Below, piece after piece: positions 12,203 through 33,648 of a stretch of 33,648 bases of DNA. Made by a program: the position numbers and the translations under genes. The notes beneath the pieces were generated by a model. It did not search any database. It was given only the letters and a program-made list of their open reading frames with translations, and had not been told where the DNA came from. Source of the stretch: Planctomycetales bacterium (GTDB lineage Bacteria > Planctomycetota > Planctomycetia > Pirellulales > S012-138); the NCBI GenBank assembly GCA_015488215.1, contig WFOE01000228.1, positions 1-33,648 of the forward strand, in the 5' to 3' direction. Position 1 is the first letter of the stretch, and every line of letters begins with the position of its first letter.

Positions 12203-12289
12203 GCAGGCAACTGGTAGTCTTTGAGCACGCCGCCAGTTCGCAGCCCATACAGGCAGACATGGTGGATGACTACACGTGTATTCCTGCCC

Positions 12290-12499
12290 GGAGCGGAAGC
12301 TCCCCGTGGCCGCGGCCCGGCCGTGCGTGCTCCGCTGACTGAAGTGGGCGGAGCACCAAGTGCCGATTGCCGGTAATGAACTGCCGATTACGAGTCACGA
12401 GTAGGAGCACGAGTACCCACGCTTGCTTTTCCACTGGAGCGGAAGCTCCTCGCGCAAGGCGCACGGCGCAAGCCGCAAGCCTATCCTCGCCCGGTGCGG
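12290..12499 (-). repeat. dispersed intergenic repeat, copy C (inverted)
   Basis: Reverse-complement copy of the elements at 1-137 and 7634-7945. Read on the minus strand it gives CCGCACCGGGC, CGCAAGGCGCACGGC-type blocks, GAGCTTCCGCTCCAGTGG, ACTCGTGCTCCTACTCG, AATCGGCA, then GACTTCAGTC-like and GAGCTTCCGCTCC units. It occupies most of the gap between the SDR gene and the histidine kinase gene. Confidence 0.7.
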
Positions 12500-12621
12500 A
12501 AGCACCCTCTGCTCAAGACCCAAGCCCCAAGACACAAGACCTTCTGGTGCGGAAGCCCTTACGCCCCCACGTTTCTCATCATACCTTCCGCCGCGCACCG
12601 TGTGACGACGCTCGTATGCTC

Positions 12622-12651
12622 TTGGCCCCGCGTGCGAGCCTGCCGTACAAT
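12622..12651 (+). promoter_or_regulatory. possible promoter of the histidine kinase gene
   Basis: TTGGCC (12622-12627) and TACAAT (12646-12651) are separated by 18 nt and lie 43 nt upstream of the chosen ATG. The hexamers match the sigma-70 consensus only partly, so this is tentative. Confidence 0.35.
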
Positions 12652-12693
12652 AAGTACTCGGCGGCGTCTTTCCTGTTGGGAAACCCATCGGGT

Positions 12694-14466
12694 ATGTCGT
12701 ATCGTTCGTTCAAACGCGTGCTGGGCGAAACGTACCTGGAGCTAAAGCTCCTGGTGCTGTTTGCCATCTGCCTGTTCGTGCTCACGGTGGTCAGCTTCTG
12801 GATCTACGGCAGCCTGACCGAAAAGCTGGTCTATCAGCAGAACCGCACCAAGGGGTGGCTGCTGGTCGATGGGATTCTCAAGGAGATCCACTGGCGGGAG
12901 TTTGAAAACCGCAGCCCTTCGCTCGTCGATGCGCTGCGGCAGGAACTGAAAAACCACCCGGAACGCTACCAGTGGTACACCATCCGCCCGCAAACCGTCG
13001 AAGGCAAAGGCCGCCCCCAGGACGAATACGACTATGAAATCCTCCAGCGTTTTCCTCCGGTGGTGTACCCGTTGCCCGAGCAGGTGGAATACGCCGAACG
13101 CCTGGTCCCCGAGACGCAGGAATACCACTACTACCAGGCCATCCGAGCCAAGCGGGGCTGCGTGGATTGCCACCGGGCGCTGAGCGGCCAGAACGACTTG
13201 ACCGAAGGCGAGCTAATCGCCGTGGTCAAGGTAAAAATCTCCGATGCTCCGGTGCGTCGGGCCATCCTCTGGAACCGAGTGTGGCTGTTCACTGCGGCCA
13301 TCGTCACGGCGTTTTGCCTGGTGCTGGTTTCCTACCTGATTATTCGCTACGTAATCGTCAAGCCGCTGAAGCACTTGCAGGAAGTCAGCGACGCGATTAG
13401 CCGGGGCGACCTGGATAAGCGGGCCGAAATCCACACCGGGGACGAGTTCGAAGCCCTGGGCACCGCGTTCAACCGCATGGTGCGCCACCTGGTGGCCGTG
13501 CAGGAGGAGCTGCGACGGCTGAACGTCAGCCTGGACGCCAAGGTGGACGAGCTGGCCGAAAAGAACATGCAGCTTTACGAGATGAACCGGCTCAAAAGCG
13601 ATTTTCTGGCCATGGTCAGCCACGAGCTGCGCACGCCGCTGAACAGCATCATCGGCTTCAGCGACGTGTTGCTCTCCATGCCCAAGCTCGACGCCCGCCA
13701 GCGCCGCTACGTGCAGAACATCCAGCGTTCGGGCCGGAGCCTGCTGGAGATGATTAACGACATCCTCGACCTGGCCAAAATCGAAGCCGGAAGAATGGAA
13801 ATCCGGCCCGAGCACTTCCGCATCCACCACCTGGTGGGCAGCCAATGCGACATGGCCCGCCCCCTGGCCGAAAAGAAAAACATCGACCTGGAAGTCCGCA
13901 TCGACCCGGAGCTGCCGGAACTGTACCAGGACGCCGGCAAGATTCAGCAGATACTAAGCAACCTGCTTTCCAACGCCATCAAGTTCACGCCCGAAGGGGG
14001 GCGGGTCGTCGTCGAAGCCCGCCGCACCGACGACGGGATGCTCGAACTGGTGGTCAGCGACACCGGCATCGGCATCCCCGAGGAAGAACAAACCCACATC
14101 TTCGACAAGTTCCGCCAAGGTAGCGCCGTCTCGACGGCCGGAGACGCGATGACGCGGGAATATTCCGGCACGGGGCTTGGGCTTTCCATCGTCAAAGAGA
14201 TGTGCCGGCTGTTGGGGGGACGCGTCAGCGTGCAGAGCGAACTGGGCAAAGGGAGCACCTTCACCGTGGTGCTGCCCTGGGAACTGCCCGAACACCTGCA
14301 CCAGCACGACGTGGACCACGTGAGCATGGTTTACGCCCAGCACCGTACATTGCTTTATCGCGGGGAACGAGCCAGTTCGCCGGGGCAGCAAGAATCGGGC
14401 GAAAAGGAACCCGACGCCCAGGAACCACTCTCGCAATCCGCCTCGCCGGAGCAGACAGCCGAGTAG
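12694..14466 (+). CDS. membrane histidine kinase with a c-type haem sensor domain
   Basis: A 590-residue sensor kinase. Transmembrane helix 1 is at about 13-37 and helix 2 at about 193-220. The external loop between them is a Tll0287/DUF3365-like domain containing CVDCH (C156, C159, H160), the haem c attachment motif. It then has HAMP (about 215-270), a coiled linker, HisKA with phospho-acceptor H310 in MVSHELRTPLNSIIGFSD, and HATPase_c with NLLSNAIKF, SDTGIGIPEEE, FDKFRQ and GTGLGLSIVKEM. The tail after residue 530 is polar and low in structure. It probably reports redox state or a gas such as NO or oxygen. No response regulator is adjacent. The ATG at 12694 immediately precedes the first membrane helix. 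Confidence 0.9.
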   Translation: MSYRSFKRVLGETYLELKLLVLFAICLFVLTVVSFWIYGSLTEKLVYQQNRTKGWLLVDGILKEIHWREFENRSPSLVDALRQELKNHPERYQWYTIRPQTVEGKGRPQDEYDYEILQRFPPVVYPLPEQVEYAERLVPETQEYHYYQAIRAKRGCVDCHRALSGQNDLTEGELIAVVKVKISDAPVRRAILWNRVWLFTAAIVTAFCLVLVSYLIIRYVIVKPLKHLQEVSDAISRGDLDKRAEIHTGDEFEALGTAFNRMVRHLVAVQEELRRLNVSLDAKVDELAEKNMQLYEMNRLKSDFLAMVSHELRTPLNSIIGFSDVLLSMPKLDARQRRYVQNIQRSGRSLLEMINDILDLAKIEAGRMEIRPEHFRIHHLVGSQCDMARPLAEKKNIDLEVRIDPELPELYQDAGKIQQILSNLLSNAIKFTPEGGRVVVEARRTDDGMLELVVSDTGIGIPEEEQTHIFDKFRQGSAVSTAGDAMTREYSGTGLGLSIVKEMCRLLGGRVSVQSELGKGSTFTVVLPWELPEHLHQHDVDHVSMVYAQHRTLLYRGERASSPGQQESGEKEPDAQEPLSQSASPEQTAE

Positions 14467-15700: not shown

Positions 15701-16531
15701 TTACTCTTGGGCCAAGGCTTGTTTGAGCACTGCGATAAGCTGAGCAATATTTTGTGGCGTTTCCACTGGAGGCCGCTCCGGACGGGGAGCTTTGCGCGTT
15801 CCCCAACAAGCCAGAAACCCCGCTGGATGAATGAACCAACCGGGCAAGTAAGGGCGGAGCTTCCGCAGGTCCGGTTCGCGGTACCCGGGTAAACGGCACA
15901 CACCCAGCCCGTGCTTGTCGTGAAACAGCACCCCTACGGGCCTTTCCCCAGCCGTCGGCACTTGAGCTTCCGGAGCCCAGTGGGGCTGATCGCTGATCTG
16001 GTCGCGTATGGCAAACACCCAAGGTCCGATACGGATCGAGGCAAGTTCCGATTCGCGGAGTCGGATCGTCAACTGTGCCAGGCCGCGGAGGATGGGCAGC
16101 ATGGTTCGCAACACGGACCGGTCCAGCGCGTCACCTTCGAGGCCTTGGGTTTCGAAATAGCAACGCGTCGCCGCTACGATCTGCGCCAGCGAAAAGTGAG
16201 GCACGGCCCCACCAAAGCGGTCCTGGGCTTCGATTTCTGCAAGCAGCGCCGAGCCCCGCAGGGCCGCGGCCTCAGGCATCTCCACCGAAGCAGCTTGAAC
16301 CGTGCCGTCGGCGCTCTGCGTTCCTTTCTGGCCCAAGGGGTGGTCCAGCACCCGAGCATCTCTCCACTCGGGTGGTAATTCCTGAGCATGGGCTGGCAAG
16401 AAACCAACTTCTTCCGGCTCCACTCCAGCGAAGGCCACGCACGCACAAGCGTCCAGATCAACGGCCGGATGAACCACGACCTTTATGGTTCGCGTGGGCT
16501 CAGACACCGAGTTGTGATCAGAGTTCCGCAT
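15701..16531 (-). CDS. DHH-superfamily phosphoesterase-like protein coupled to the CRISPR operon
   Basis: A 276-residue protein with a degenerate DHH phosphoesterase pattern. VVVHPAVDLDACACVAFAG supplies H21, D25 and D27, and VLDHPLG supplies D63-H64 with Pro in place of the second His. The C-terminus GWFIHPAGFLACWGTRKA (from residue 231) resembles the DHHA1-like end of MYG1-type members. DHH enzymes cut small phosphodiesters such as pApA and nanoRNA. A DHH/NrN enzyme degrades SAM-AMP in some type III CRISPR systems. Its ATG overlaps the stop of the Cas7-insertion gene (TAATG at 16529-16533), so translation is coupled. I infer a role in degrading the Cas10 messenger or its products. Caution: similar proteins may occur outside CRISPR loci. 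Confidence 0.55.
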   Translation of the reverse strand: MRNSDHNSVSEPTRTIKVVVHPAVDLDACACVAFAGVEPEEVGFLPAHAQELPPEWRDARVLDHPLGQKGTQSADGTVQAASVEMPEAAALRGSALLAEIEAQDRFGGAVPHFSLAQIVAATRCYFETQGLEGDALDRSVLRTMLPILRGLAQLTIRLRESELASIRIGPWVFAIRDQISDQPHWAPEAQVPTAGERPVGVLFHDKHGLGVCRLPGYREPDLRKLRPYLPGWFIHPAGFLACWGTRKAPRPERPPVETPQNIAQLIAVLKQALAQE

Positions 16532-19020
16532 TACAGCTTTTTCAACGGAAGAAGTCCACCTGGAATTGCCTTTTTGTCGCCTTTTGGCAGTTTTCTTCCT
16601 TTGGCGTGTTTTTTTCTCAATTCTTGGTGGTACTCGAAGATCGACCCGCCTATTCGTGGATAGTCGAACCTGCGGCGCCCGACGAATCGGTGAACTTCAA
16701 GCCAAGAGCAGAAAACTTCTTGGACCCACCGATGCAAGTCCCCTTGAAGTTTGTCCTTAAGGAACCTGACAAAGGCTTCCAGGCAACGGCGCTGGATGTC
16801 TTCGGAAAGCTCGGCTTCTCCTGGCAGGCCGTCCTGTTGTTTTACTAGGATGCGCCCCTGGTTCAATCTGATGGCTATGCTGCCTAATCCCAGCGGACGC
16901 CCGTGGCCGATCTTATGTGCAAGCACCGGTTGTTTCCCGGGCTGGTTCCCCAAGTAACGATTGACCCATCCCTGTAAATCCTCCGAATCTCCGGCCGCTT
17001 CCTTCATAAGCAGATCAGCAAATGTCTTCAGGTCCTCCGGACGTTGGAAAAGCACCAAGAGCAGGGCACCAAGTTCCCAAGGTTGCAGGTTGACGAACCG
17101 CAGCGTGAAGCGGAACCGGCGTCCCGGCTTGGAGATAAAACGGCCGAAAGGTGCCTGATTGCTGGTAAGGAAGATTGTGTTGCCAGACTGCCAATCGGGC
17201 TGGCTTGAATCGAGCAGCTCATAGCATTTAGGGTCCCGTGCAGCGTCGGGCTGGTGCAAATAAAACTTTCGACCGCGGAGGTTACCGGCTGATTCGTCCT
17301 TTTGAGTATCACCATAAGTGCACAAAATGCCCGCATCCTTACGTTTGCACAAGCGTTCCTTGTCCTGTGTCAAGTAGTGCTCTACGGCACTGGTTTTTGG
17401 CGCTCCCAAGGGGCGAAGGGGAACCAGGCACTCATGCTCCGGATTGAGAAACCGTTTGCCCACCGCCTCGCCTTCGGATAGCTGCTCTACAGCATGGTTC
17501 AAAGCGATCCGTCCTGCCAGTTGGGCAAAATCGGTCTGCTTCCCCCCGCAGTAGCCGATGCCGAACGAGAGCACTTCGTCCGGGGAGTAGTTTCCACCGC
17601 TAGGGCCCACATACCCGAAGAACAAGCGAGCCGCACTAAGCTGCGACGGACGGCCGGATGGATCGGATTCAAGTTCGGCTGGCCGAGGCGCAAGCAAATC
17701 CCGCAACGTGGCCAACTGATTGTACTTTTGTGCCAGGTGCTTCGCCTGATAGTCCGACTCCTGAGTGTGGTGTACGGTGTCCCGATACCGCTGGCGGTAA
17801 TAGACGTGATGGCCAAGGGTGCACAACGCCCAGGTGTTCTGCCCCTGGTATTTGAGAGGCAGCAATTCCACAACCAGAACGTCTCCTGGTAAAATCCCTC
17901 GATTACGTAGTTTTTCAAGCTGTGTTTTTATTCTCTCTACGTCCGCAGCATCGACCAATGGGTGATCCCGAAGATGTCCGTATTTTTCGTCACTTAGATG
18001 GATAAGCGTTTCGTTCCGCCAAAAATCCACTTGCGTCATTGCCAAGGGAACAATTCTTATGTACTCCTCGTAACCGATTTTTATGTGGTCTTCCTCAGGC
18101 ATTTCCAGCAACAGATAGTTATAGCCAAATGGGCCCTCGCTGATCGAATCGGGATGCTGCTCAGCGAACCGGGAAGCAAGAAGCCCTTGTGTGTCGATTC
18201 CGTTAAAATAGTAAGCAAGCACCAGCCGTTCGACATTTTCGCCCTTCCGTATTTTTCCGGTTTCATCCAGTTGCTTCTTTTCCTTGCGTGAGAGGAACGG
18301 GCGAGAGGTGGACGATGAAAATGTGTTCAGACCGTTGTAATGCTTGCGGTCCGACTGGCTGTCATCAAACTTCGGTTTCCAATCGGGAAGAAACTGTTCT
18401 ACATCCTGTGGCACGTAGTACGCGCGGTCCAACTCAAACAGAAGGAGAGTGACCGCAGAATCGGTAACACCGGTTACCAGCCCCAGGAACACGTAAGAAC
18501 GCGGCTTTGTCTTCGGTCCAGCAAACCACAAGTTGGGACGGTAAGAATGGGTCTTTTCCCACACGCGTTCCATCGGGGCCGAAAGCAGCGCTGAGAGGCT
18601 GTGACGCAGCATCCCTTTGAGTTGAGTGGCTGGGATGAGCACCGGGCCGGGTTTATTTGACTGGGAGTTTAACAACAGGGGCTCGATGATCTTCTTCTCG
18701 CTCGTTTTGGGAGTCTGCGCGGCTCTCCTTTTTCTGAAAATCTGGTACGCCGCCTCGCGCACACGCTGCAATGCCACCGGCTCCTGGAGTGCAGTGGCAT
18801 CGCCTTGCTGAGCACTTCCCAGCGCGTACTGGTAATTGCCGGGCAGCAGCGGCGTAAGCGTTTCCAATTCGCAATACAGCGTACCGGTAAACGCTTGACC
18901 CTGGCCGCCAGAGCCGGAATCGAGCCCTTGGAGCACATCGTGCGGTTGAGGTTCCGCGGTAAGGGAAACCTTCGTGTTGACCGGGACAAAGTGGTAGGGT
19001 GCAGGTTTTTGTTCTGACAT
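16531..19020 (-). CDS. cas7: large type III Cas7 protein with insertions (TIGR03986-like RAMP)
   Basis: An 829-residue RAMP protein. The N-terminal part has HDVLQGLDSGSGG and LYCELETLTPLLPGN, a Cas7 beta strand and loop. VLIPATQLKGMLRHSLSALL (about 128-147) is the conserved RAMP helix after the 'IPGSxLKG' strand. A long middle insertion (about 200-480) is charged and unique. The C-terminus carries NQAPFGRFISKPGRRFRFTL and HKIGHGRPLGLGSI (from residue 702), typical of TIGR03986. It matches the 'Cas7-insertion' subunit of III-Dv complexes, which lies along the crRNA backbone. It is fifth in the leftward operon, 18 nt after the csx19-like gene, and overlaps the start of the DHH-like gene by one base. 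Confidence 0.8.
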   Translation of the reverse strand: MSEQKPAPYHFVPVNTKVSLTAEPQPHDVLQGLDSGSGGQGQAFTGTLYCELETLTPLLPGNYQYALGSAQQGDATALQEPVALQRVREAAYQIFRKRRAAQTPKTSEKKIIEPLLLNSQSNKPGPVLIPATQLKGMLRHSLSALLSAPMERVWEKTHSYRPNLWFAGPKTKPRSYVFLGLVTGVTDSAVTLLLFELDRAYYVPQDVEQFLPDWKPKFDDSQSDRKHYNGLNTFSSSTSRPFLSRKEKKQLDETGKIRKGENVERLVLAYYFNGIDTQGLLASRFAEQHPDSISEGPFGYNYLLLEMPEEDHIKIGYEEYIRIVPLAMTQVDFWRNETLIHLSDEKYGHLRDHPLVDAADVERIKTQLEKLRNRGILPGDVLVVELLPLKYQGQNTWALCTLGHHVYYRQRYRDTVHHTQESDYQAKHLAQKYNQLATLRDLLAPRPAELESDPSGRPSQLSAARLFFGYVGPSGGNYSPDEVLSFGIGYCGGKQTDFAQLAGRIALNHAVEQLSEGEAVGKRFLNPEHECLVPLRPLGAPKTSAVEHYLTQDKERLCKRKDAGILCTYGDTQKDESAGNLRGRKFYLHQPDAARDPKCYELLDSSQPDWQSGNTIFLTSNQAPFGRFISKPGRRFRFTLRFVNLQPWELGALLLVLFQRPEDLKTFADLLMKEAAGDSEDLQGWVNRYLGNQPGKQPVLAHKIGHGRPLGLGSIAIRLNQGRILVKQQDGLPGEAELSEDIQRRCLEAFVRFLKDKLQGDLHRWVQEVFCSWLEVHRFVGRRRFDYPRIGGSIFEYHQELRKKHAKGRKLPKGDKKAIPGGLLPLKKL

Positions 19021-19038
19021 GGTTGGCTTCGCATTTGT

Positions 19039-19614
19039 TTAAGGGGAGACGATTCTCCAAAAAATCCTTCGCCCGCGGCAAAAATACTGGCGCACAACGC
19101 AATCGGTGTTCTCTTTCCAGGTAGGAGGCTGCAAGCCGTAACGGTTCCAATCGCGTAGCGCCATTACCCGGCGATCGGCAAAGTAAATCGGCACGAAGGC
19201 CGATTGCTGGTCTGGCCAGGTAGTCCACTGTTGCGACGAGTTGAGCTGATCCAGAAGACCGGACGGTACAACCTTTTGTGGGGTCTGCCCCTGCGGCACT
19301 TCAGCCCAAAGCGCCCAGCGAGTCAGACCGTCGGCTGCGGCCAGTTGCAAGGCGGCATGGTTCCAGTAGAGCCGGGCTTCTTCCAAGGGAGGAAATGTTT
19401 CCGTATTCCATAGCTGTCCTCCCCAAGGCACAAAGCCGGGAAAGGTAGCGGGGGTCCATACTCTTTGAGCGGCTGGAGCTGGCTCCAGCCAGGCTGCTTT
19501 GGGCTTGAACGCCAGCAGTTGGGCCATCCACATGTGGAGCAACTGCTTCCGGACGCCGGAAAGGCATTCCAGCCGGCCGTTGAGTTTTTTCAGAGAAAGC
19601 GTGGTGGAACTCAT
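19039..19614 (-). CDS. csx19: Csx19-like small subunit
   Basis: A 191-residue protein between two Cas7 genes. EEARLYWNHAALQL resembles the 'ELRLFG...ELHLWR' region of Csx19. The closing VVRQYFCRGRRIFWRIVSP resembles its 'VRNYL' end, and RVMALRDWNRYGL lies between. Csx19 is characteristic of type III-D and a structural member of III-Dv complexes. The similarity is weak and is supported mainly by length and gene position. The ATG at 19614 is preferred to an in-frame TTG at 19629. There is no strong ribosome-binding site, so it may depend on coupling to the upstream cas7-2x gene, whose stop lies 26 nt before it. Confidence 0.5.
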   Translation of the reverse strand: MSSTTLSLKKLNGRLECLSGVRKQLLHMWMAQLLAFKPKAAWLEPAPAAQRVWTPATFPGFVPWGGQLWNTETFPPLEEARLYWNHAALQLAAADGLTRWALWAEVPQGQTPQKVVPSGLLDQLNSSQQWTTWPDQQSAFVPIYFADRRVMALRDWNRYGLQPPTWKENTDCVVRQYFCRGRRIFWRIVSP

Positions 19615-19640
19615 CTCACTACGACTCAAGATGTTCTTGC

Positions 19641-21239
19641 TTATTTTCTAGAGGTATGGAAAAACCTGTCCACATCTGAAATGGAACACACATCAAGCGA
19701 TTCGAACAAAGGCCGAAGTCTTCCAGCCTGAGTGAGGGCAGCTCGGGTCAATTGCCAGCGAATCCATCCGTGGCCTCGCCATTTTCCGCCGCCCAAGGCA
19801 CAGTACCCCAGCTCGGCCAGGCGGAGGGCCGGACGGAGTGTCGCGAACATTTGTTGCAGTTCTTCTTGAGAACAGGCTTCCAACACCAGTTGCGTCCCCA
19901 GTTGACCTTCCAGCAGCGCAACCCGATCGAACTTGCCATGTCCCCAAACCCCGCCGGCGAACTCGTCTTCGGCGTGGTGGTGGAACCAGGCAATGTGCCA
20001 TGGGTTTCCTCGGTCGTCACTGTTGAGAAGCAAAGCGTCTCGAATCAACAAACGACCGCTTTGTGTGCCTAAACCGAATACCTGAGCTATCGAATCCAGA
20101 TTCCGCCTGTCTTTACCTTCCTGGCCGGGTTGGAAATCGGGGGCGTTGGGATCTTGCACCGGTGTCCCCTGTCCTCGGTGCCAGGCCGAAGCCACATGGC
20201 GCAGCGGACCGCGAATGCCACTGCCGGGCAGGAAAGGTTCTTCCTGGTAACTTTGCGAGCGGAGCACATAGGTGGTGGCGGGAACAAAGTCCGGCTCATA
20301 ATACCGGAGAAACTCTTCCTGGTCGATTCCTTCCGGTCCGAGCAGCCCTTGTTGCAAAGCTGCCACCTGGCCAGCCAAATGGCCTCCGGCAGAGAGAGTG
20401 TTCCAGCCATAGCTTTCCGGTTCCGGACCAGTGCAGAACTTTACATCGAGAATCAAGTAGTGGAACGGATCATAAAGCGATTCGAGCTCGGGACTGAGAG
20501 TTAAAGAGTCCAATTGCGGTTGGCCCATCGGGCGTGCCAGTTTTCCAAAGCGAGCCATAGCGCTGCGGAGGCTGTCGATCTTCAGCGTATTGTCCGGCCA
20601 TTGTTGGACTACCTGGGGCCTAAGAGGAAGCCGGAAGGCACAGAACTCTTCCAGTCGCATCCATCCTAAGCCCCGGGCTGCTCCAGCTCCTAACCAGCAG
20701 CGTCCTTGGGTCCACTCTCGCAGTGCAAGCAGAACCATCTGTTCCAGTTCCGGCCCTCCGCGTGCCGTGTCGATTTCCAGCATGAACCACCAGCGAACCC
20801 CCGGCGGAACCACCTCCAAATCGTAAAGGGCTTTACGTTGCGATGCGGTACCTCCGGTGGCCTGACGAACGCCGACCCCCTGGCGCAATTGCCGCAACTG
20901 GGCAGGCGCCTTGACGGGATGAGCAGACCAGAAGCGAACGCAGGATTGCCGCAGTGTCAGCTCGCCCCGCCCCGGTGGTTGCTTTCCCTTGCCAGTGAGC
21001 GTCCAACGCAGCCATTCGTTGTGCCTCGTGGTAAACAATTTGGGGAACAGTCGGGCCACAGTTTCGACCAGGGCTCCGGCGATCCCCGAGCCGGGAATCG
21101 TCAGCCGTCCCTGGCCATCCACGGCACACTGCATATCCGGCCCGTGCCACTGAAGACTACTCCCCCCCACCAGTAAGCCGGACTGCTGGACCAGGTGTCC
21201 GCAAACCAACGTGCGATAGATTTTGTCCTGCTGGGTCAT
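19641..21239 (-). CDS. cas7-2x: tandem double-Cas7 RAMP protein (Cas7-2x)
   Basis: A 532-residue protein made of two Cas7 (Csm3-like) domains. Domain 1 (about 1-205) has GLLVGGSSLQWHGPD with D35 in the place of the Csm3 catalytic aspartate, LTIPGSGIAGALVETVARLF and the Gly-rich loop WLGAGAARGLGWMRL. Domain 2 (about 255-532) has EEPFLPGSGIRGPLRHVASA (from 333) and ends with LGYCALGGGKWRGHGWIRW. I could not place a second catalytic Asp with confidence. Cas7 subunits form the backbone over the crRNA and cut target RNA every 6 nt. The ATG at 21239 is used: GAAGG overlapping the stop codon of the upstream gene is its ribosome-binding site, with an 11-nt gap. A longer upstream start would overlap that gene heavily. 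Confidence 0.82.
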   Translation of the reverse strand: MTQQDKIYRTLVCGHLVQQSGLLVGGSSLQWHGPDMQCAVDGQGRLTIPGSGIAGALVETVARLFPKLFTTRHNEWLRWTLTGKGKQPPGRGELTLRQSCVRFWSAHPVKAPAQLRQLRQGVGVRQATGGTASQRKALYDLEVVPPGVRWWFMLEIDTARGGPELEQMVLLALREWTQGRCWLGAGAARGLGWMRLEEFCAFRLPLRPQVVQQWPDNTLKIDSLRSAMARFGKLARPMGQPQLDSLTLSPELESLYDPFHYLILDVKFCTGPEPESYGWNTLSAGGHLAGQVAALQQGLLGPEGIDQEEFLRYYEPDFVPATTYVLRSQSYQEEPFLPGSGIRGPLRHVASAWHRGQGTPVQDPNAPDFQPGQEGKDRRNLDSIAQVFGLGTQSGRLLIRDALLLNSDDRGNPWHIAWFHHHAEDEFAGGVWGHGKFDRVALLEGQLGTQLVLEACSQEELQQMFATLRPALRLAELGYCALGGGKWRGHGWIRWQLTRAALTQAGRLRPLFESLDVCSISDVDRFFHTSRK

Positions 21240-21250
21240 ACGATTCGCCT

Positions 21251-23626
21251 TCAATGAGCTCTGCCGGATTGATTTTCCTTGGCCTTCAGGGCTGCCAAGG
21301 CCATGAGAAATAGTTGTTTCTCCCGAAAGGAATGTAATTGTCGGGTTGCTTTTTGAAGGTCTTGCAACACACTTTGCCAAGGAGAGCCGGAAATCCGCCG
21401 GGAATGTTCTAGGAGTTCGTTATATAGCGCATCCAATTCTTCCTGGTTCCGACACAGCTCTGCTCGATGGCGTAAGAATTGCCATTGATTGACATTCAAG
21501 GAACCCACTTTCTTTTTGTATTGAAAAACTTGTTCCAAAACGCATTCTTTTTTCCAATCGTCTTCCTCGTCGAGCTGAGAGGATGGCTCGGACGCGGCCC
21601 CAGGCAGGTTCACCCGCCCAGCAACTTGCGGCAGTGTCTTCCACCACGAAAGTTGGTGTAGGTTCAAATTGACCGTAAAGCGGCCGAACCCTTCAGCGGT
21701 GCGTTCTCCCAGCCCCAGGCCGTTTGCCGCCACGAGGTTCAGTGCGTGGGCAAAGGAGTCCAGCGAGCTTTGTTCCCCTTGAAAGACAAACACCGACCCA
21801 CGCCGCACCGCCACCGCCATGGCCCGAGGCAATCCGCTGGCAGAGTTGAAGCCCAGGACGGGCACGGATTCCACGACGCTTAGGTCCGGAGAAAGTTTAA
21901 TCTGGTGAGGATCAATCTTTTCTAAATCCAGGTTGAGCCAGGGGTGGACTACTTGTACCTGTTCCAACATGGAGTACCAAAGTTCCGGACCGGGGCAGGT
22001 GGAATAAGTCAGCCGGGGCGTACGGCAGATTAGCTCGCTAGCCAGGGTAACGGTGAGGAATCCCGGACGGCTTTGTTGTGGAACTTGCCGCTGGGGCCGG
22101 GGCAGGGCGGCCACGTTGCGGACCACGAGGGGCTGGCCCCCGCGACCCAAACGCAAACACCAGCATGCATGTCCGTTGGAAGCTACTAGCGGAGCAAGAA
22201 GTTGCAAAAACCGACGAGCGCACTGGGCCGAAGCAAACCCGATGTGAGCCTGGAAAACCTGGTCGGGCACCAGCATTTTCTGACTGAATAGGGCATCTTC
22301 TTGACAGCCAGGAGTCCCTTGATCCACATACGATTCCTCTCCGGTCGATGGATTGGGAGCAAGTTTCCCCCGGCGGTCGGGATCAATGCGCCCGGTCGGT
22401 ACCCGGTTCCGCAGGTGGACTTGGGTTTGCGCGGTTCCGCGTACCCACCAGGAGTCGCCGATTTTAGTCGCGAGGACGTCGGGCCGCTTAATGCGTTTGG
22501 TTTTTTCCGCAGCGGGAAACCGGCCGTTCTTCGAGCCGGCTTCAATGTTCCGTGCCACCTGGTCTTGCTCTCGGGAAGCTCCCAACAGCTCGTCGGGGGC
22601 TCCGGCCGGCCAGTTGGAAGGGGGCCCCTTGCTTTTCGGTTCCCGTAACGACAGTGGGATGGGCACCACCTGGCGGTCTGCAAGCGGGATTTCGGAGGCT
22701 GGAGGCGGAACCGCCAGCCCATCACTCACCCACATCTGCTGCGGTTGGGCCAGCTCTTCGGCCAGTGTTGGATCCTGGCTGCGGATAAAGTGCAACAGTC
22801 CCCCGCGGAGCGAAGAGCCGGGAATGTAGGCCAGCGTTTCGCCAATGTTCCCTACCACCACGGCATTGGCAAAAAACAGCGGTTCTAGGTTCTTCAACTC
22901 TAAAGTAAGCACAACCGGCTCGCTGGTTCCTTCGGGAATCAGCTTTTCCACGTCGATCTGTTCCGCTTGTACCGGGCGAAATTCCTCTCCTTGAGGAAAC
23001 CGAAGCTGGATGGCTCCTGTTCCCCGTTGCCGCCGACCTCCTACGGCGCTGATTCGCTTCAAACATGCCAGCACGGCTCGCTGGATATCTGCAAGTTTTA
23101 TGCTCCCTTCCTGCCAAGGACCTCCGGAGGCCGGATCGGCTAGAATCACATAGCCGGAAAAACAAGTGCCTGCCTTGACGGTTTCTACCGTGCGGAGCGT
23201 TTTTTCCATGGGGCTGCGGCTGTGCAGTTCCCGGGCCGTAAAGCTCCAGGTGGTAATTGCCTTTTGGGTTTGCCGTGCGTCGGGGCGCAGCGAGGAGACG
23301 ATCAGCGCCCCGCGCTCCCGAGAAGCATTTTGCGAGGCCTTGTTAACCGGGTGACCCAGCAGGTAATAGAGGAGCTTTCGGTCCCGGTTGAGATTGCTTG
23401 GATTCTCCCCGGCATCGGCTCGGGCCAGCAGCCACTGCTCGCCCGCTTCGCGCATCAGCCCTCGCCAGGTGGACCACCAGATGACGGGCTTTCCGCGGTG
23501 GTCCCGGGCCACGGTGGAATCCACCATCCCCAGGCGGCCCAACCCTGAGCCGCAGGAGGTGTCTTCCAACAGCTCCACTTGGAAATCCAGCCGCCACTGA
23601 ACGGGCTGTTGGGTGGTTGCACTCAT
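21251..23626 (-). CDS. cas7-cas5-cas11: Cas7-Cas5(Csx10)-Cas11 fusion subunit
   Basis: A 791-residue fusion. Residues 1-215 are a Csm3-like Cas7: DTSCGSGLGRLGMVDSTVARD, with D36 aligning to the catalytic Asp of Csm3, WWSTWRGLMREAG, and the Gly loop SAVGGRRQRGTGAIQL. Residues about 236-690 are a Csx10-type Cas5: ETLAYIPGSSLRGGLLHFI, VPPPASEIPLADRQVVPIPL, then DALFSQKMLVPDQVFQAHI and GLGLGERTAEGFGRF. Residues about 690-791 are a charged all-helical bundle (NQWQFLRHRAELCRNQEELD), as expected for Cas11. The same order is known from the III-Dv complex of Synechocystis. Cas5 caps the crRNA 5' end, Cas11 lines the filament and Cas7 cleaves target RNA. It follows cas10 by 13 nt. Confidence 0.82.
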   Translation of the reverse strand: MSATTQQPVQWRLDFQVELLEDTSCGSGLGRLGMVDSTVARDHRGKPVIWWSTWRGLMREAGEQWLLARADAGENPSNLNRDRKLLYYLLGHPVNKASQNASRERGALIVSSLRPDARQTQKAITTWSFTARELHSRSPMEKTLRTVETVKAGTCFSGYVILADPASGGPWQEGSIKLADIQRAVLACLKRISAVGGRRQRGTGAIQLRFPQGEEFRPVQAEQIDVEKLIPEGTSEPVVLTLELKNLEPLFFANAVVVGNIGETLAYIPGSSLRGGLLHFIRSQDPTLAEELAQPQQMWVSDGLAVPPPASEIPLADRQVVPIPLSLREPKSKGPPSNWPAGAPDELLGASREQDQVARNIEAGSKNGRFPAAEKTKRIKRPDVLATKIGDSWWVRGTAQTQVHLRNRVPTGRIDPDRRGKLAPNPSTGEESYVDQGTPGCQEDALFSQKMLVPDQVFQAHIGFASAQCARRFLQLLAPLVASNGHACWCLRLGRGGQPLVVRNVAALPRPQRQVPQQSRPGFLTVTLASELICRTPRLTYSTCPGPELWYSMLEQVQVVHPWLNLDLEKIDPHQIKLSPDLSVVESVPVLGFNSASGLPRAMAVAVRRGSVFVFQGEQSSLDSFAHALNLVAANGLGLGERTAEGFGRFTVNLNLHQLSWWKTLPQVAGRVNLPGAASEPSSQLDEEDDWKKECVLEQVFQYKKKVGSLNVNQWQFLRHRAELCRNQEELDALYNELLEHSRRISGSPWQSVLQDLQKATRQLHSFREKQLFLMALAALKAKENQSGRAH

Positions 23627-23639
23627 GGTTTCTCAAACG

Positions 23640-25502
23640 TTACGGCGTGGAAGGCACCGGCTGAAGCTGAGACGGTACCGACTGGCTTTGGAGCCCTTGG
23701 AGTCGTCGTAGTTCGTACAGTTCCATCAGATCGAGCAAACAGGTGGACCAGGTATTGGCTTGGCCGGAAGCGGTCCAGAGGAGCTGTCCCTGGTCGTGGA
23801 GCCGGGCCAAATCGCTCTTTACTTGCTCGTCGGCCCACAACATGGCGGCCAGGCGCCCCTGATTGCGTCCCCGGCGGGCATATTCGGCCAGCACGTGCAG
23901 CTTGCTTCGTGGAACCCGGCCGGCCCAACGTTCGGCCATTTGGAGCAGTTTTTCCAAAGAGAGCGGGCCGTTTCCCGATTCAGTTTTCAACACGCGATAC
24001 GGCTTGCTGGTAAGCAGAATCGTCTCGATTGAGTTGCCGGAAACACGGTAGCGGCGGGAATAGTCCTGGCGGCGGACCTGGTCCACGTCTTCGTACCACG
24101 CTTCGCTGGTTACCAGCCAATCGATTGTGGAAAATTCGCCTTCGCCCCGGTCACACAAGCTGCGATGGAGCTTTTTGGCGCTGCTGGCCAGTTCTTCGGC
24201 CAGATCATGGGCACGATAAAAGGGGAACGAAGGTTTGACAATGGCCACGCCGATTCCCACGGTCAATCGGCTCGAGGCATCACTAGACTGCTCTGTTGAT
24301 TCCGCGGTGGACCTCTCTGTATTTGTGGTCGGCTGAACGCCGCCACTTTCGATGGCCCGGGCATACGCCGTGGCAAACGGTAGGGCGAAAGCCGCGTCGC
24401 ACACCATGACGAAATCATCCCCGCCGAGCATCAGCAACCGGAAAGGTGGAGCCCCCTGATTTTGCTCCAAGAAGGCGTGAAAGGTATCCTTGATCGCCTG
24501 TTGCAATGCCCGACGCGTGGCCGTGCGACATTCAAAGTAGAAGCGCTCTCCTGCCGCTTCTGCAATCAGCCCGGCAATGTTCCGGAGGTTCGCTGCGTCG
24601 GACTTCAGCGCCTGTTGCTTTGCCTGGTTGCGTAGCTGGGTTCCTCGTTGGCCCAGGCCGTTGCCGTCGGCTACCGCCACGGCCAGGTAAGAGCTTACCC
24701 GGGCCACTTCGTGGAACTCGGTGGGCCAATCTCCCTTGCCTTGTTGCGGGAGCAGGGAGTCCCGCAACAAACCGATCAGGTCGAACGACCGCCCGTTGTT
24801 GAACCGATCCGCAGCCTGCCGGCGTTGCTCCACGGCAGGGCTGATGCGTTGCAGACGCCCCAACTCTTCCTTTTCGGTATACGCCCAGTCGGTAAGTGAT
24901 ACTTCACAGGGCTGCCAGAGTGGCAATCCCCAGGCGGCTTCTTCGGCCGGAGGGGCAATCGTTTCTCGGGTAGTCTGGTGTTTGGCTTCGCTTCCTGCTT
25001 GCTCCTGCGCTTTGCAAAACTCCTCCCACCGGAAGAGACTCATGCCGATCTGCAAACCGGGCAGCTTCTCAGTGATCAGCCGCCAGGCGTCTTCGGCAAA
25101 CGCCAGGGCGTTTTCCCGGCTGGGAAACACAGCGCGAAAGTGCCCCCCGTCCCGTGCAAGAATCCCTTGACGATAGGCCGTCCGGGGATCGTCCCAATCC
25201 TGCCCCGAGCTTCCGACAGGTTCTCCATTGCTGGGCAGATACTCTTCGACGGCCCTGAGCTGCTGCTGGTCCAGAGGCAGGCACGCCCCGTGTTCGAGAG
25301 CCAAGCCCGGAAGCGTTTGTCTGTCTTTTACAAATTGTCGGCTTCCTCCTTGGTCGCACAGTTTCCCTCGGAGCACTTCGCCAAGGAGAACATTGGCTCC
25401 GATGATCGACTTGAGCTCCGGAACGGAAAATAAAAAAGTCTGCACCCGCTGGAAGTCGATTGCCACCACGTAAGGCTCTGCGCATGCATCCCCTTGGGGC
25501 AT
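23640..25502 (-). CDS. cas10: Cas10, type III signature protein with an active-looking palm
   Basis: A 620-residue large subunit of the interference complex. The N-terminus YVVAIDFQRVQTFLFSVPEL and IIGANVLLGEVL is the typical start of a Cas10 without an HD nuclease domain; no HD pair is present. Palm 1 has VAVADGNGLG with D279. Palm 2 has LMLGGDDFVMVC with GGDD at 360-363, so synthesis of cyclic oligoadenylate or a related messenger is plausible. A Ser/Thr-rich insertion lies at about 388-411. The C-terminal helices (about 500-600) fit domain D4. The ATG at 25502 has AGGGAG at 25511-25516, 8 nt upstream. It is the first gene of the six-gene leftward operon; the promoter must lie in 25503-25858. 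Confidence 0.92.
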   Translation of the reverse strand: MPQGDACAEPYVVAIDFQRVQTFLFSVPELKSIIGANVLLGEVLRGKLCDQGGSRQFVKDRQTLPGLALEHGACLPLDQQQLRAVEEYLPSNGEPVGSSGQDWDDPRTAYRQGILARDGGHFRAVFPSRENALAFAEDAWRLITEKLPGLQIGMSLFRWEEFCKAQEQAGSEAKHQTTRETIAPPAEEAAWGLPLWQPCEVSLTDWAYTEKEELGRLQRISPAVEQRRQAADRFNNGRSFDLIGLLRDSLLPQQGKGDWPTEFHEVARVSSYLAVAVADGNGLGQRGTQLRNQAKQQALKSDAANLRNIAGLIAEAAGERFYFECRTATRRALQQAIKDTFHAFLEQNQGAPPFRLLMLGGDDFVMVCDAAFALPFATAYARAIESGGVQPTTNTERSTAESTEQSSDASSRLTVGIGVAIVKPSFPFYRAHDLAEELASSAKKLHRSLCDRGEGEFSTIDWLVTSEAWYEDVDQVRRQDYSRRYRVSGNSIETILLTSKPYRVLKTESGNGPLSLEKLLQMAERWAGRVPRSKLHVLAEYARRGRNQGRLAAMLWADEQVKSDLARLHDQGQLLWTASGQANTWSTCLLDLMELYELRRLQGLQSQSVPSQLQPVPSTP

Positions 25503-25858: not shown

Positions 25859-26857
25859 GTGTTGGACTACACATCGATGCTCTGGCCGCAAGACTCCCCG
25901 GCATCAACCAGAACGGAAAAGGACCCACGAGAACAGGCTCCTTCGCAGACTCAGCAAGGGGAGCCCCTGCTTGTGTCGATCACTGAATTGGCGCTGGAGT
26001 TCCTTTCCGCCGGTCGGCTGGTTCCTTGGTTGGGACCGGCTTTGCGAGGGTTGATCACCCGCGAACTGAAAAGCCGTAGTTGCGTTTTCGGGTCGCGTGG
26101 GCGGTTCGGCATCCAGTGCCACCGCTTCTGCGCCGCACCGGAGCGTTGCTCTTACGGGCGATTGTTCGAGCCAGGGCAGAACGCTCCCCGGATGGCTGTG
26201 GTGGCCCCCTATTTCCCCTGCCCCGAGCAAGCCGAACCAGGCATGTCCATTTCGGTGCGAATCATCCTGGTGGGGCAACAAGCTGCAGGCGACCTAAACT
26301 GCTTGCTCGAAACGTTGGATACCACCGGCCGGGCGGTGGGCATCGGGCCGGACAAGGTTCGCTTTTGCTTAAGGGAACGGCTGTGGAAAGCGAGTACGTC
26401 CCTTGCTCCGCAGGCCTTGGTGGAACCAAGAGATCCGCAGGAGGTATATCCCCGGGTGGCCATCGGATTGCGCAGCCCCTTGATCCTCCGCCGCAAAAAC
26501 GAAGTCGGCAAACGCTACACCGTCAATCGGCCGGAGCTGGAAGACTTTTATTCGTCTGCGGCCATCACCTTGCAGCAGCTCTTCGCGGCGCATGGCACCG
26601 AGCTGAATGCTCCTTACCGCCACTTGCGTCAACTGGCCGAAGGAGTTCGCCGCTGCGAGCAGCACTACCAACCATTCCGACAGGTGCGATGGTCCAGTCG
26701 CTCCCGGCAGCGATTCGAAATGTTCGGCTGCGTGGGAGGTGCCGTGTTTACCAACGTACCGGCAGCGCTTGTGCCCTGGTTGTACTGGGGTGGGCTGCTC
26801 CACGTGGGTGCCCACCGCGTTGCCGGGGCAGGAGGATGGCGCGTTATCCTTGATTGA
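25859..26857 (+). CDS. cas6: Cas6 pre-crRNA endoribonuclease
   Basis: A 332-residue RAMP-fold nuclease that cuts repeat RNA to release crRNAs. It shows WLGPALRGLITREL near 56, the Cys-rich stretch with CSYGRLFEPG ('CpYxxLFE' of Cas6), LRSPLILRRKN and the C-terminal Gly-rich region FGCVGGAVFTNVPAAL, followed by WLYWGGLLHVGAHRVAGAGG, typical of pfam10040 Cas6. The GTG at 25859 is used, with GGAGAG at 25848-25853 only 5 nt upstream; an ATG at 25877 is an alternative. The first 35 residues are polar and probably disordered. It is transcribed divergently from cas10 and convergently with the glycine-zipper gene. It is the only repeat-processing enzyme in the window. Confidence 0.88.
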   Translation: MLDYTSMLWPQDSPASTRTEKDPREQAPSQTQQGEPLLVSITELALEFLSAGRLVPWLGPALRGLITRELKSRSCVFGSRGRFGIQCHRFCAAPERCSYGRLFEPGQNAPRMAVVAPYFPCPEQAEPGMSISVRIILVGQQAAGDLNCLLETLDTTGRAVGIGPDKVRFCLRERLWKASTSLAPQALVEPRDPQEVYPRVAIGLRSPLILRRKNEVGKRYTVNRPELEDFYSSAAITLQQLFAAHGTELNAPYRHLRQLAEGVRRCEQHYQPFRQVRWSSRSRQRFEMFGCVGGAVFTNVPAALVPWLYWGGLLHVGAHRVAGAGGWRVILD

Positions 26858-27020: not shown

Positions 27021-28253
27021 TTAGCGGACGATCGATCCGGCTACGGCTTCGCCGGCCTTCTCTCCGGCCCAGGCTCCACCGATGCCTCCCACGATCGCCC
27101 CAACGCCCCCGCCAATGGCCGTACCAATAGGACCGAAGAAGGAACCGATCGCAGCTCCGGTGACCCCACCGGCCTTGGCTCCCGCCCAGGCTCCGGCGGC
27201 TCCCCCGGCGGCTCGACCGGCTGTTTGCGCGTGGCGCTGCAGGCGCTGCTTGTGGGTGATGCGGCCCTCGCGGTAGACCTTTTCGGTGTTGTACACCTCA
27301 AGGCCCCCCGTACCGATCTCCACAGCAACGCCTACAGGACCTGCCACACGCTCAAGCGCTCGGCCCAATTGCTTGGCCATCCGGCCTGCCCGACCGAGCA
27401 CTCCCAGGGCATCATCAGCAGCGCTGCTTACCCGGGGACGAACCCGCCCCGCCCTGGCCGAAGCGGTTCCTTTGACACGCGGACGCTTCGGCATGGGCGA
27501 TGCGGTAGCGCGGACCTTGGCAGAACCGGAGACCGAAGCGTGCCGCCCCAGGTGCTTGCTTGCCCGGGACCAGCACCTGCGGACGTGTTTGGACACAACC
27601 TTCTCCAGGTGCCGTTTCTTAGGCAACGGAGCACCACAGGGCAGCTTCGACATCACGCGCCCTTGCTCCAAGGCCTGTTTGAGCCGAGCATACTCCGGGG
27701 ACAGTGGGATGCCTCGGTAACGGGACAAGTACACCTTGCGTTTAAGTTCCCTCTCCAAGGCACGGTAAGTTTCTGCGTCGGTCAGAAAGTGCATCCCGCG
27801 ATACTTGGGGTCACTCAACGCGTTGATAATCGTCTTGGGACTGCCACTTTTGGCCTGAATCCGACGCAGCACCTTGCCGGTGGAAGTATCCACTTCCAGG
27901 ATGTCCGCCGCATGGTGCGGCTGCCCCAAAACGCTGGTGGGAACCCAGCGGGTTGCCTGGCCGGTGGCCTTCATCCGGGTGTTGACGGTGTGGGAGGCCA
28001 CCGCTTCCAAGGCTTTGCCCCGACGCGAATTGAGCGTCTCCTTCAGGTACTTCTCAGCCGAACCGTACCGCTCCACGGCCTTGGGGCTTACCCGGCCTGC
28101 GGTCCGGTCCAGCAAATCCGGAAGGGAGTAGATTTCCCCCGGAACGCGAACATGCTGGCCCACAGCCAGCGCAGGTTGGGCCACCGTTTGGGCCGAAACG
28201 TTGCCGGTAAAGGCAACCAAGGCAATCAACAACGAAAGAACGAGCGTCTTCAT
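27021..28253 (-). CDS. secreted protein with nuclease-like motif and C-terminal glycine zipper
   Basis: A 410-residue protein, not recognised as a named family. Residues 1-21 are a signal peptide ending VSA-Q. Residues about 70-170 form a compact domain with GQPHHAADILEVD and VLRRIQAKSG (D117, Q133, K135), then YRGMHFLTDAETYRAL. This resembles PD-(D/E)XK-like nucleases of polymorphic toxins in which QxK replaces ExK. Residues about 180-275 are very basic and low in structure (KRPRVKGTASARAGRVRPRV). Residues 344-409 are a Gly/Ala zipper such as GGVTGAAIGSFFGPIGTAIG, which could insert in membranes. The ATG at 28253 is firm: AAGGAG at 28260-28265 with 6 nt spacing. It is preceded by three micropeptide genes and closed by a clear terminator. 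A toxin or effector role is inference only. Confidence 0.6.
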   Translation of the reverse strand: MKTLVLSLLIALVAFTGNVSAQTVAQPALAVGQHVRVPGEIYSLPDLLDRTAGRVSPKAVERYGSAEKYLKETLNSRRGKALEAVASHTVNTRMKATGQATRWVPTSVLGQPHHAADILEVDTSTGKVLRRIQAKSGSPKTIINALSDPKYRGMHFLTDAETYRALERELKRKVYLSRYRGIPLSPEYARLKQALEQGRVMSKLPCGAPLPKKRHLEKVVSKHVRRCWSRASKHLGRHASVSGSAKVRATASPMPKRPRVKGTASARAGRVRPRVSSAADDALGVLGRAGRMAKQLGRALERVAGPVGVAVEIGTGGLEVYNTEKVYREGRITHKQRLQRHAQTAGRAAGGAAGAWAGAKAGGVTGAAIGSFFGPIGTAIGGGVGAIVGGIGGAWAGEKAGEAVAGSIVR

Positions 28254-28299
28254 TTGCTTCTCCTTTCTTTTGCTAGTAGACACGGGAGCCGGATTCGTG

Positions 28300-28344
28300 A
28301 AAAAGCGGCCCGAGCCGCCGGCTCCCGACGGGGCGACTCGGGCC
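28300..28344 (-). terminator. terminator or attenuator between micropeptide A and the glycine-zipper gene
   Basis: Arms GGCCCGAG (28307-28314) and CTCGGGCC (28337-28344) form an 8-bp GC stem. On the minus strand GC then TTTTT follow (A run 28300-28304). It lies between micropeptide A (ends 28380) and the start of the larger gene (28253). It could end most micropeptide transcripts and allow only partial read-through, making peptides more abundant than the large protein. Confidence 0.65.
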
Positions 28345-28379
28345 ACAAGGCACAACACGTAGTGGGGGGCAGGGGGCGT

Positions 28380-28772: not shown

Positions 28773-28796
28773 TAGGCAACAATTGCAGACCTATTC
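28773..28796. repeat. short interspersed repeat, copy 1
   Basis: TAGGCAAC followed by the 16-nt core AATTGCAGACCTATTC (28781-28796). The same core occurs exactly at 28881-28896 and as a variant at 29146-29161. It lies upstream of micropeptide B on its strand. Function is unknown; promoter, operator or recombination site are possible. Confidence 0.65.
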
Positions 28797-28872
28797 CGCA
28801 ACACAGGCCCACGGATGAGCCATGCTTCGCCGCCTCGCCTCACAGCGAGGCTTTGCGGGTAGGTCTATTCAA

Positions 28873-28896
28873 TAGGCGCCAATTGCAGACCTATTC
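28873..28896. repeat. short interspersed repeat, copy 2
   Basis: TAGGCGCC plus the exact core AATTGCAGACCTATTC. It is preceded by AGGTCT at 28861, inverted relative to AGACCT in the core, giving a palindromic frame around the site. Confidence 0.65.
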
Positions 28897-28906
28897 GGCG
28901 ACCACG

Positions 28907-28936
28907 GGGCGGGCCCCTAGCAAGCGGAGCCCGCCC
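28907..28936. other. GC-rich hairpin downstream of micropeptide C
   Basis: Perfect 8-bp stem GGGCGGGC (28907-28914) / GCCCGCCC (28929-28936) with a 14-nt loop, 30 nt past the stop codon of micropeptide C. No T run follows on the minus strand, so it is not a standard terminator. Confidence 0.5.
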
Positions 28937-28965
28937 TGCAGCCCCTTTGCTCGGTCATGCCAGAG

Positions 28966-29055: not shown

Positions 29056-29141
29056 TGTCTCGCCCTCCTTTTGCGGAGAAATGCTGCTGGTTCCCAGGCT
29101 CCACTGCCCAGGCTCCCAAACCAGCAGCTTCACTAAATAAG

Positions 29142-29161
29142 CGCCAATTGCAGACCCAATC
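29142..29161. repeat. short interspersed repeat, copy 3 (variant)
   Basis: CGCC followed by the core variant AATTGCAGACCCAATC (29146-29161). It lies 91 nt upstream of micropeptide C on its strand, supporting a regulatory role. Confidence 0.55.
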
Positions 29162-31174: not shown

Positions 31175-33648
31175 GTCTCAGCGACCTCTGGTGGCCCTAA
31201 GGGCATTGAGACACGAGCGGGTAGAAGTGCAGTTGATCCCCTTGTTCACGCCGGTTTCAGCGACCTCTGGTGGCCCTAAGGGCATTGAGACGTCCGCCTC
31301 GAAACTGGAACACCAGCACCACGCCTCCTACCGCGTTTCAGCGACCTCTGGTGGCCCTAAGGGCATTGAGACGTCGTACGTGGTGGCCATCACGCACGAC
31401 CCGGCCCTTCCCCTCGGTTTCAGCGACCTCTGGTGGCCCTAAGGGCATTGAGACGGTCCGGACGGTGAAGTACAACCGCCGATCCCGGGTTTCAGCGACC
31501 TCTGGTGGCCCTAAGGGCATTGAGACCGGGGCCAGCCGGTCTGGTGGTAGGCCTATTTGGTAGTGCCAGTTTCAGCGACCTCTGGTGGCCCTAAGGGCAT
31601 TGAGACGGCGTCCCCAGGTGGGGACGCCGAGCTTACTTCCCGCCGTTTCAGCGACCTCTGGTGGCCCTAAGGGCATTGAGACTACGATCACGCCCCCTCG
31701 GGGGCGTGATCTTTTGGGGTTCTCGTTTCAGCGACCTCTGGTGGCCCTAAGGGCATTGAGACCATCCAAAAGGAAGGTGATTTTCACCTTTCCTGACGAG
31801 TGGAGTTTCAGCGACCTCTGGTGGCCCTAAGGGCATTGAGACTGGTGGATCACTGCAATGTTGCAGTGATCCACCAAGAGTCCGGGTTTCAGCGACCTCT
31901 GGTGGCCCTAAGGGCATTGAGACTCGTAGGATGCTTGCATTAGAGAAAGGAGTTATTTTCCGTTTCAGCGACCTCTGGTGGCCCTAAGGGCATTGAGACG
32001 AAGTAATGCCGATGGATCCTAGCATGATGGGAGGGTTTCAGCGACCTCTGGTGGCCCTAAGGGCATTGAGACCCACCACTCGATCCAGGGCGCAGGCAAC
32101 CACTTAGGGTTGCCGTTTCAGCGACCTCTGGTGGCCCTAAGGGCATTGAGACCTTTCGATTCCCAGACCAATGGGAAGTCGATTTTGGTAAGTGTTTCAG
32201 CGACCTCTGGTGGCCCTAAGGGCATTGAGACCCATCGTTATCGCGTCTGGTGAAGCCGGTAACGATGGCCACGGGTTTCAGCGACCTCTGGTGGCCCTTA
32301 GGGCATTGAGACTTCGGTTCAAAGCCACTCCGGATCAGGTGTTCGAGTTTCAGCGACCTCTGGTGGCCCTAAGGGCATTGAGACGAGGAACCGCTGATGC
32401 CAGCGGACATCATCGTACTCTTTGGCCACGTTTCAGCGACCTCTGGTGGCCCTAAGGGCATTGAGACTCGGCGGTTGTACGTGGACGGCAACCTCTGTGA
32501 CGGTTTCAGCGACCTCTGGTGGCCCTAAGGGCATTGAGACAGGTGGAGGGGATAGATATGAGGGTGTCTTACGGTTACGTTTCAGCGACCTCTGGTGGCC
32601 CTAAGGGCATTGAGACAAGGGGGGAAGCATCTGAAACGCTTCCATGATGTCATCGTTTCAGCGACCTCTGGTGGCCCTAAGGGCATTGAGACATGGCGTG
32701 GGAGGCGAATACCGGCCGGGCATGCTGGAAAAGGTTTCAGCGACCTCTGGTGGCCCTAAGGGCATTGAGACCGCGCAAGCGGGCCACCGTACGACGATCC
32801 TGACCCGGTGTTTCAGCGACCTCTGGTGGCCCTAAGGGCATTGAGACGCGGTCTTTTGCTCCTGGCCGCCACCGCTGTCGCCCCCGCCGGAAGGGTTTCA
32901 GCGACCTCTGGTGGCCCTAAGGGCATTGAGACTTCCACAGGCCGTCCTGGCTGCCGGAAGTCGCCCGGGCCTCGTTTCAGCGACCTCTGGTGGCCCTAAG
33001 GGCATTGAGACATGCCCGTGCGTAATATTCGTTACAACCGGCGCTCGCGCGTTTCAGCGACCTCTGGTGGCCCTAAGGGCATTGAGACTGCAACATCGCA
33101 GCCATCGACGGGGAAACCGGCCAGGTAATGTTTCAGCGACCTCTGGTGGCCCTAAGGGCATTGAGACTTCATGCGGGTGGAAATCTTAGCAAGATAATAG
33201 GTTTCGTTTCAGCGACCTCTGGTGGCCCTAAGGGCATTGAGACGAAGCCCCTTATCGGTTGAGCCTGCCCCCGGTATCCGGGTTTCAGCGACCTCTGGTG
33301 GCCCTAAGGGCATTGAGACCTGTTCCTTGGGTTGGGAGGAGCCGGTTTTTGTGTACTCCGTTTCAGCGACCTCTGGTGGCCCTAAGGGCATTGAGACCCA
33401 GCGTCAAAGCGGGAGGTGATATTCCGCTTTCCGAACGTTTCAGCGACCTCTGGTGGCCCTAAGGGCATTGAGACAACCTCTGTGATGAGGTTGCCATCCA
33501 AAACATTCGGGAGGCGTTTCAGCGACCTCTGGTGGCCCTAAGGGCATTGAGACAAGGTCGTCTTCCGATTTCCCAATCGATGGACAGTTTACTTGTTTCA
33601 GCGACCTCTGGTGGCCCTAAGGGCATTGAGACCCGTCCTGTTTGAAAA
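31175..33648. CRISPR. CRISPR array, 32 repeats of 38 nt, truncated at the window end
   Basis: Repeats start GTTTCAGCGACC and end GGGCATTGAGAC (plus strand). There are 32 copies from 31175-31212 to 33595-33632, then 16 nt of a further spacer. The 31 complete spacers are 34-47 nt, the variable length typical of type III. Repeats are identical except the first (31175, T to C at position 3) and the fifteenth (32275-32312, A to T in the central loop). Both repeat ends can give a plausible crRNA handle: ATTGAGAC after hairpin GCCC-TAA-GGGC on the plus strand, or GCTGAAAC after GGCC-ACCAGA-GGTC on the minus strand. The decayed left repeat and the coding sense of spacers favour minus-strand transcription. 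Short open frames in the array are repeat artefacts. Confidence 0.98.

Follow-up and report, generated by a model that had tools for sequence, protein, structure and literature searches.

The window, by which we mean the whole stretch of 33,648 nt analysed here, is one entire contig (C228) of a 303-contig planctomycete genome, and its minus strand carries a cas operon (25502-15701) of six tightly packed ORFs, all of them open. This locus raises two questions: which kind of interference complex its first five genes encode, and what the uncharacterised sixth gene, p276, does beside them. Taking both parts together, we consider it quite probable that the locus is a type III-Dv CRISPR-Cas system to which p276 is linked as an accessory gene. 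An earlier note on this DNA had claimed five genes in one order, and all five were found at the place it gave: cas10 (23640..25502; 620 aa), of III-D type with a GGDD cyclase motif and without an HD domain; the cas7-cas5-cas11 fusion (21251..23626; 791 aa); cas7-2x (19641..21239; 532 aa counted from the ATG, with a longer frame opening at TTG 21380); csx19 (19039..19629; 196 aa, TTG start; PADLOC Csx19 E 3.9e-11); and cas7-insertion (16531..19020; 829 aa). The same span also holds p276 (15701..16531; 276 aa), which is absent from that note's description. Intergenic gaps in the cas operon are 11-18 nt, and the cas7-insertion/p276 junction reads TAATG, the ATG of p276 overlapping the stop codon of cas7-insertion by 1 nt. 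On the plus strand, divergent from cas10, lies cas6 (25859..26857; PF10040 E 9.6e-7; PADLOC Cas6 E 8.6e-35), and at 31175..33632, reaching the contig end, is a CRISPR array with 32 copies of a 38-nt repeat. Its 31 spacers, of 34-47 nt, are all different, and none of them matched phages.

The reading of the operon as a III-Dv-like complex built of fusions, also put forward in the earlier note, was upheld by comparison with the III-Dv system of Synechocystis PCC 6803 (pSYSA; PDB 8s9t-8s9x; PMC11026444), in which these five genes recur in identical order and with identical fusions. Both loci combine a Cas10 that has GGDD and lacks HD with a nearby Cas6 and a Cas7-insertion that is the last of the complex genes, and in both the first fusion is 791 aa long. 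PADLOC and NCBIfam named the products, far above chance, as Cas10/Cas10d, Cas5_IIId/Csx10 plus Cas7, Cas7_IIId, Csx19 and a TIGR03986 RAMP. Profiles built from the window and its relatives, with Synechocystis left out, were then searched against every ORF in the III-Dv and III-B regions of pSYSA. For four of the five subunits the best match was the protein's own counterpart (E values of 2.5e-42 for cas10, 1.6e-32 for cas7-cas5-cas11, 6.3e-24 for cas7-2x and 9.9e-16 for cas7-insertion); the exception was Csx19, whose profile gave no significant match to Synechocystis Csx19 in this search. Cas7-insertion matched TIGR03986 above the cut-off (E 1.7e-51), its large insertion is also backed by the alignment, and it lacks the N-terminal ~110 aa of the Synechocystis protein, residues that are not visible in the Synechocystis map. 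The complex itself is a new member of III-Dv, and the new points are the recurrent sixth gene and an altered third slicing site. The III-Dv structures that we found (8s9t-8s9x) all come from one cyanobacterium, for which the planctomycete clade provides a distant comparison.

Downstream of cas7-insertion, Synechocystis has a CARF-RelE (Csm6) gene, whereas the window has p276 instead. The nearest named III-Dv loci belong to Thermoguttaceae/Thermogutta MAGs, which might hint at the thermophily that the earlier note thought probable, but the window genome is of another family of the same order. These closest relatives are JANXAQ010000286.1 (locus L026 of genome G468; 34-42% identity to the window), contigs of G564, and G703; in all of them a CARF-AAA-HTH gene precedes cas10, and in two of the three p276 follows cas7-insertion. 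Counting the window, three out of the four related III-Dv loci thus have p276 after cas7-insertion, one of them across a presumed contig junction. In G468 it begins 640 nt past cas7-insertion and is followed by a CARF-HEPN gene. The III-Dv operon of G564 ends within a CARF-like gene (weak PADLOC matches) on contig L093, and contig L027 starts with a 616-aa frame that has a CARF_PDDEXK-type nuclease as its first part (E 1.1e-8) and p276 at its end, after which come CARF-HEPN (1e-48) and Cas6. The L093-L027 junction is presumed, since the two contigs do not overlap, and the nuclease assignment rests on PADLOC, since a PDB search with the nuclease part found nothing. In the G703 locus p276 is absent and CARF-HEPN comes directly after cas7-insertion. 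On L115 of G703, after position 2732, the end of CARF-HEPN is overlapped by a protein that, judged by eye, resembles a RelA/SpoT-type HD hydrolase; it is a further possible nucleotide hydrolase, close to the place where p276 is missing.

Among 396 genomes of the order, p276 occurred in 8 and a III-Dv system of the window's clade in 4, with both present in 3. Its homologues in Thermogutta and other Thermoguttaceae share 45-52% identity. The protein had no match in Pfam, NCBIfam, PADLOC or the PDB sequences, none to families of described CRISPR ring nucleases or SAM-AMP enzymes (PADLOC, NCBIfam, Pfam), and only chance-level matches when its profile was compared with the PDB. We found no copy in phage and plasmid records. 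A homologue of 37% identity lies on a contig of the IMG/VR collection (L042 7983-8777; IMGVR_UViG_3300030397_000458), where ten neighbouring proteins were scanned, yielding some PHROG matches and no hallmark structural gene; this homologue is possibly a counter-defence gene.

Three motifs are common to nine relatives of p276: HxxxDxDA, then a DH pair some 40 residues further on, and GWFxHxxGFxxCWG. Taken in sequence, they resemble the DHH and DHHA1 motifs seen in NrnA-like proteins of the same bacterial order, with a shorter first spacing. Set against the ordered HxxxDxD, DHH and GGGH motifs, the first matches, the second reads DHP or DHD, and the third is GWFxHxxGF. However, hhalign gave a probability below 1% against the relatives' NrnA-like and RecJ proteins, and no DHH match appeared in Pfam even at E 10. 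Because the profile comparison gives no support for homology, we treat the likeness as a motif-level lead. The same holds for the DHH-DHHA1 enzymes MAD, which degrades cOA (PMC7854544), and NrN, of the DHH family, which degrades SAM-AMP (PMC10600005): p276 resembles them in the order and wording of the three motifs and shares a CRISPR signalling context, but differs in the lack of profile-level homology, the smaller distance between motif I and DH, the replacement of the second H by P or D, and the altered glycine-rich motif. Separately, in a Euryarchaeal protein (L041 1169-2032) only the GWFIHPxGFLACxG end and the HxxxDADA start are common to p276; it adjoins a CARF-like gene (337-1050) and a MkoA-like gene.

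The position of p276, the frame it shares with a nuclease and its motifs together make breakdown of a messenger its likeliest role, over that of a passenger or an effector. We therefore tentatively put p276 forward as a candidate off-switch phosphodiesterase that would degrade the messenger made by Cas10. A fusion of an effector with a ring nuclease has a precedent in Csx1-Crn2 (PMC7293037). According to the 2025 classification (PMC12669027), III-D loci do not encode known SAM-AMP-cleaving enzymes, and new messengers and nucleases may come to light in loci whose ring nucleases do not follow the common pattern; p276 is a concrete candidate for a missing enzyme of this sort. The wider claim that p276 founds an undescribed, III-Dv-tied family of messenger-degrading enzymes, joined in one host to a CARF nuclease and used by a virus for counter-defence, is more doubtful.

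The distribution of p276 could also be read differently. In at least four other genomes it lies far from CRISPR genes, and in three of these it adjoins a 2'-5' RNA ligase-like gene; the copies of Thermogutta and its relatives that stand away from CRISPR have folD, thpR, recA and similar genes as neighbours. In the p276 tree the window copy groups with Thermogutta chromosomal copies (support 92/90), and the fourth III-Dv locus, that of G703, has no copy. All this would be in keeping with p276 being a housekeeping enzyme, native to Thermoguttaceae-like planctomycetes, that ended up in CRISPR operons and plays no part in immunity. We nevertheless find this rather unlikely, as p276 occupies the identical slot after cas7-insertion in three loci (one through the presumed junction), overlaps cas7-insertion by its first nucleotide in the window and, in G564, shares its reading frame with a CARF-type nuclease.

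A different possibility, to which we give equally little credence, is that p276 itself acts as an effector or belongs to the complex as a subunit, and is not an off-switch. Its tight coupling to cas7-insertion in the window would agree with this, as would the fact that the relatives' CARF-HEPN was not found in the window genome. On the other hand, no CARF/SAVED or known toxic domain was detected in p276, and the homologues of p276 are retained as single genes on chromosomes and on a contig from a viral collection.

Whereas the Thermoguttaceae III-Dv loci carry CARF-HEPN, no such effector was found in the window genome; the three relatives, each of which has one, served as positive controls. 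The nearest CARF candidate in the window genome is an RtcR-like CARF-AAA-HTH protein encoded on contig C169, and genes similar to it stand directly before cas10 in G468, G564 and G703. At its end, C169 carries 12 copies of a repeat identical to that of the window array, adjoining cas1 and cas2. Since the ends of C228 and C169 do not overlap, their joining is an assumption. We regard the C169 regulator as the likely sensor, although what links it to the locus is the repeat shared by these two contigs. On the same contig (L012), a 1340-aa protein (5953-9975) combines, within a single chain, domain 6 of the RNA polymerase subunit Rpb2 with domain 2 of Rpb1; its gene adjoins that of the CARF-AAA-HTH protein (10954-12924) and a 316-aa gene, and the protein had no match among 145 relatives.

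As for the slicing subunits, the 791-aa fusion matched PDB 8s9t_A (E 7.8e-6) and Csx10 (E 9.3e-20), and the match of its profile to Synechocystis covers Cas7 (4-291) and Cas5 (390-693). Its C-terminal 120 residues have a Cas11-like position and length but alone gave no significant match to Synechocystis (E 4.3); the Cas11 domain is therefore a putative one, proposed from position, length and the end-to-end alignment. The site-1 aspartate is kept in the fusion, D36 aligning with Synechocystis D26, and the site-2 aspartate of Cas7-2x is probably kept as well (PDMQ, with a register ambiguity of one residue). The site-3 aspartate (Synechocystis D246), in contrast, aligns to Asn 282 of the window Cas7-2x. 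Three alignments of nine sequences, made in different modes, agree on this placement in a gappy region; an earlier alignment of six sequences had placed it elsewhere in the same loop region. Three catalytic Cas7 aspartates are a property of the Synechocystis type member, not a defining one, and the window departs from it at this site, which we predict to be inert. The Asn is common to the window, L026 and L093, while L031, L032, L096 and the Thiodictyon protein have Asp. A natural D-to-N change of this kind at one slicing site would be useful for the question of how III-D relates to III-E.

Together with the missing CARF-HEPN, the site-3 Asn might be taken to mean that the locus is decaying, with one slicing site and its effector lost. 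This seems improbable to us: the six genes are all open and closely spaced, the array holds 31 different spacers and GGDD is intact, and the presence of the same Asn in L026 and L093 implies that it is no recent lesion.

The Cas10 phylogeny proposed in the earlier note as a check placed the window protein with III-Dv Cas10s and not with III-B. Window Cas10, which begins at palm 1 and whose GGDD aligns with that of Synechocystis, matched PADLOC Cas10d with E 2.4e-53 (180 bits, versus 24 for III-B and 14 for III-A) and PDB 8s9t_C with a phmmer E of 1.7e-10. In a tree of 13 sequences it fell with the Thermoguttaceae, Thiodictyon and two planctomycete III-Dv proteins (support 98/99), apart from a group formed by Synechocystis III-Dv, Planktothrix III-D and L095 (96/95), and with the III-B protein far off; neither the root nor the branching order of the clades is certain, owing to long branches among the outgroups. 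The Thiodictyon sequence comes from the III-Dv-like locus on plasmid pTs485 of Candidatus Thiodictyon syntrophicum (NZ_CP020372.1), which agrees with the window in its five genes and their order and has 27-35% identity to it, but keeps the site-3 Asp and has, in place of p276, CARF-HEPN and a cas1 gene of 1052 aa downstream. It is very improbable that the window locus is a III-D1 or III-A/B system only resembling III-Dv, as might be thought from the mere 21-26% identity to the Synechocystis proteins and from the matches of its Cas7 domains to Csm3 models too, given that fusion pattern, gene order, Csx19, the insertion-bearing Cas7 and the Cas10 tree all fit III-Dv. In the Planktothrix III-D locus (L104 9974-12270), which belongs to the Synechocystis Cas10 group, Cas7 is separate from the next fusion; the Cas7-Cas5 fusion was thus either split there or made twice.

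The type III-E effector gRAMP/Cas7-11 is weakly matched by the window Cas7-2x (2.3e-9) and Cas7-insertion (3.8e-11) with the gRAMP model. Type III-E, however, is a single effector without Cas10 and Cas5, whereas the window has several proteins and retains both, and we rejected membership in it. In the 2025 classification, 'III-D2' is used as a label, with Cas7-11c as an example (PMC12669027).

By analogy with Synechocystis, we infer that one copy of each fused subunit would assemble on a Cas6-cut crRNA into a complex of single stoichiometry, and that this complex would bind foreign RNA and cleave it at the first and second Cas7 sites, the third being predicted inert. Binding of the target RNA would, again as in Synechocystis, switch on the GGDD cyclase of Cas10 and give rise to a nucleotide messenger. 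In the absence of an HD DNase, immunity should depend on signalling and on the cutting of RNA. The C169 regulator would be the likely sensor of the messenger, and p276, last in the operon, may handle it, its likeliest role being that of an off-switch phosphodiesterase.

Three further observations concern the surroundings of the locus. Between cas6 and the array, 27021-28358 encodes a signal-peptide-like protein with a glycine-rich tail and without a match in a Pfam search. Close to the array, 28773-29167 contains three imperfect 30-nt direct repeats (TAGGC..CAATTGCAGACC). On the short contig C229 (L001) of the same genome, a Cas7-like end precedes cas4, cas1 and cas2; this is apparently a second, type I-C-like system.
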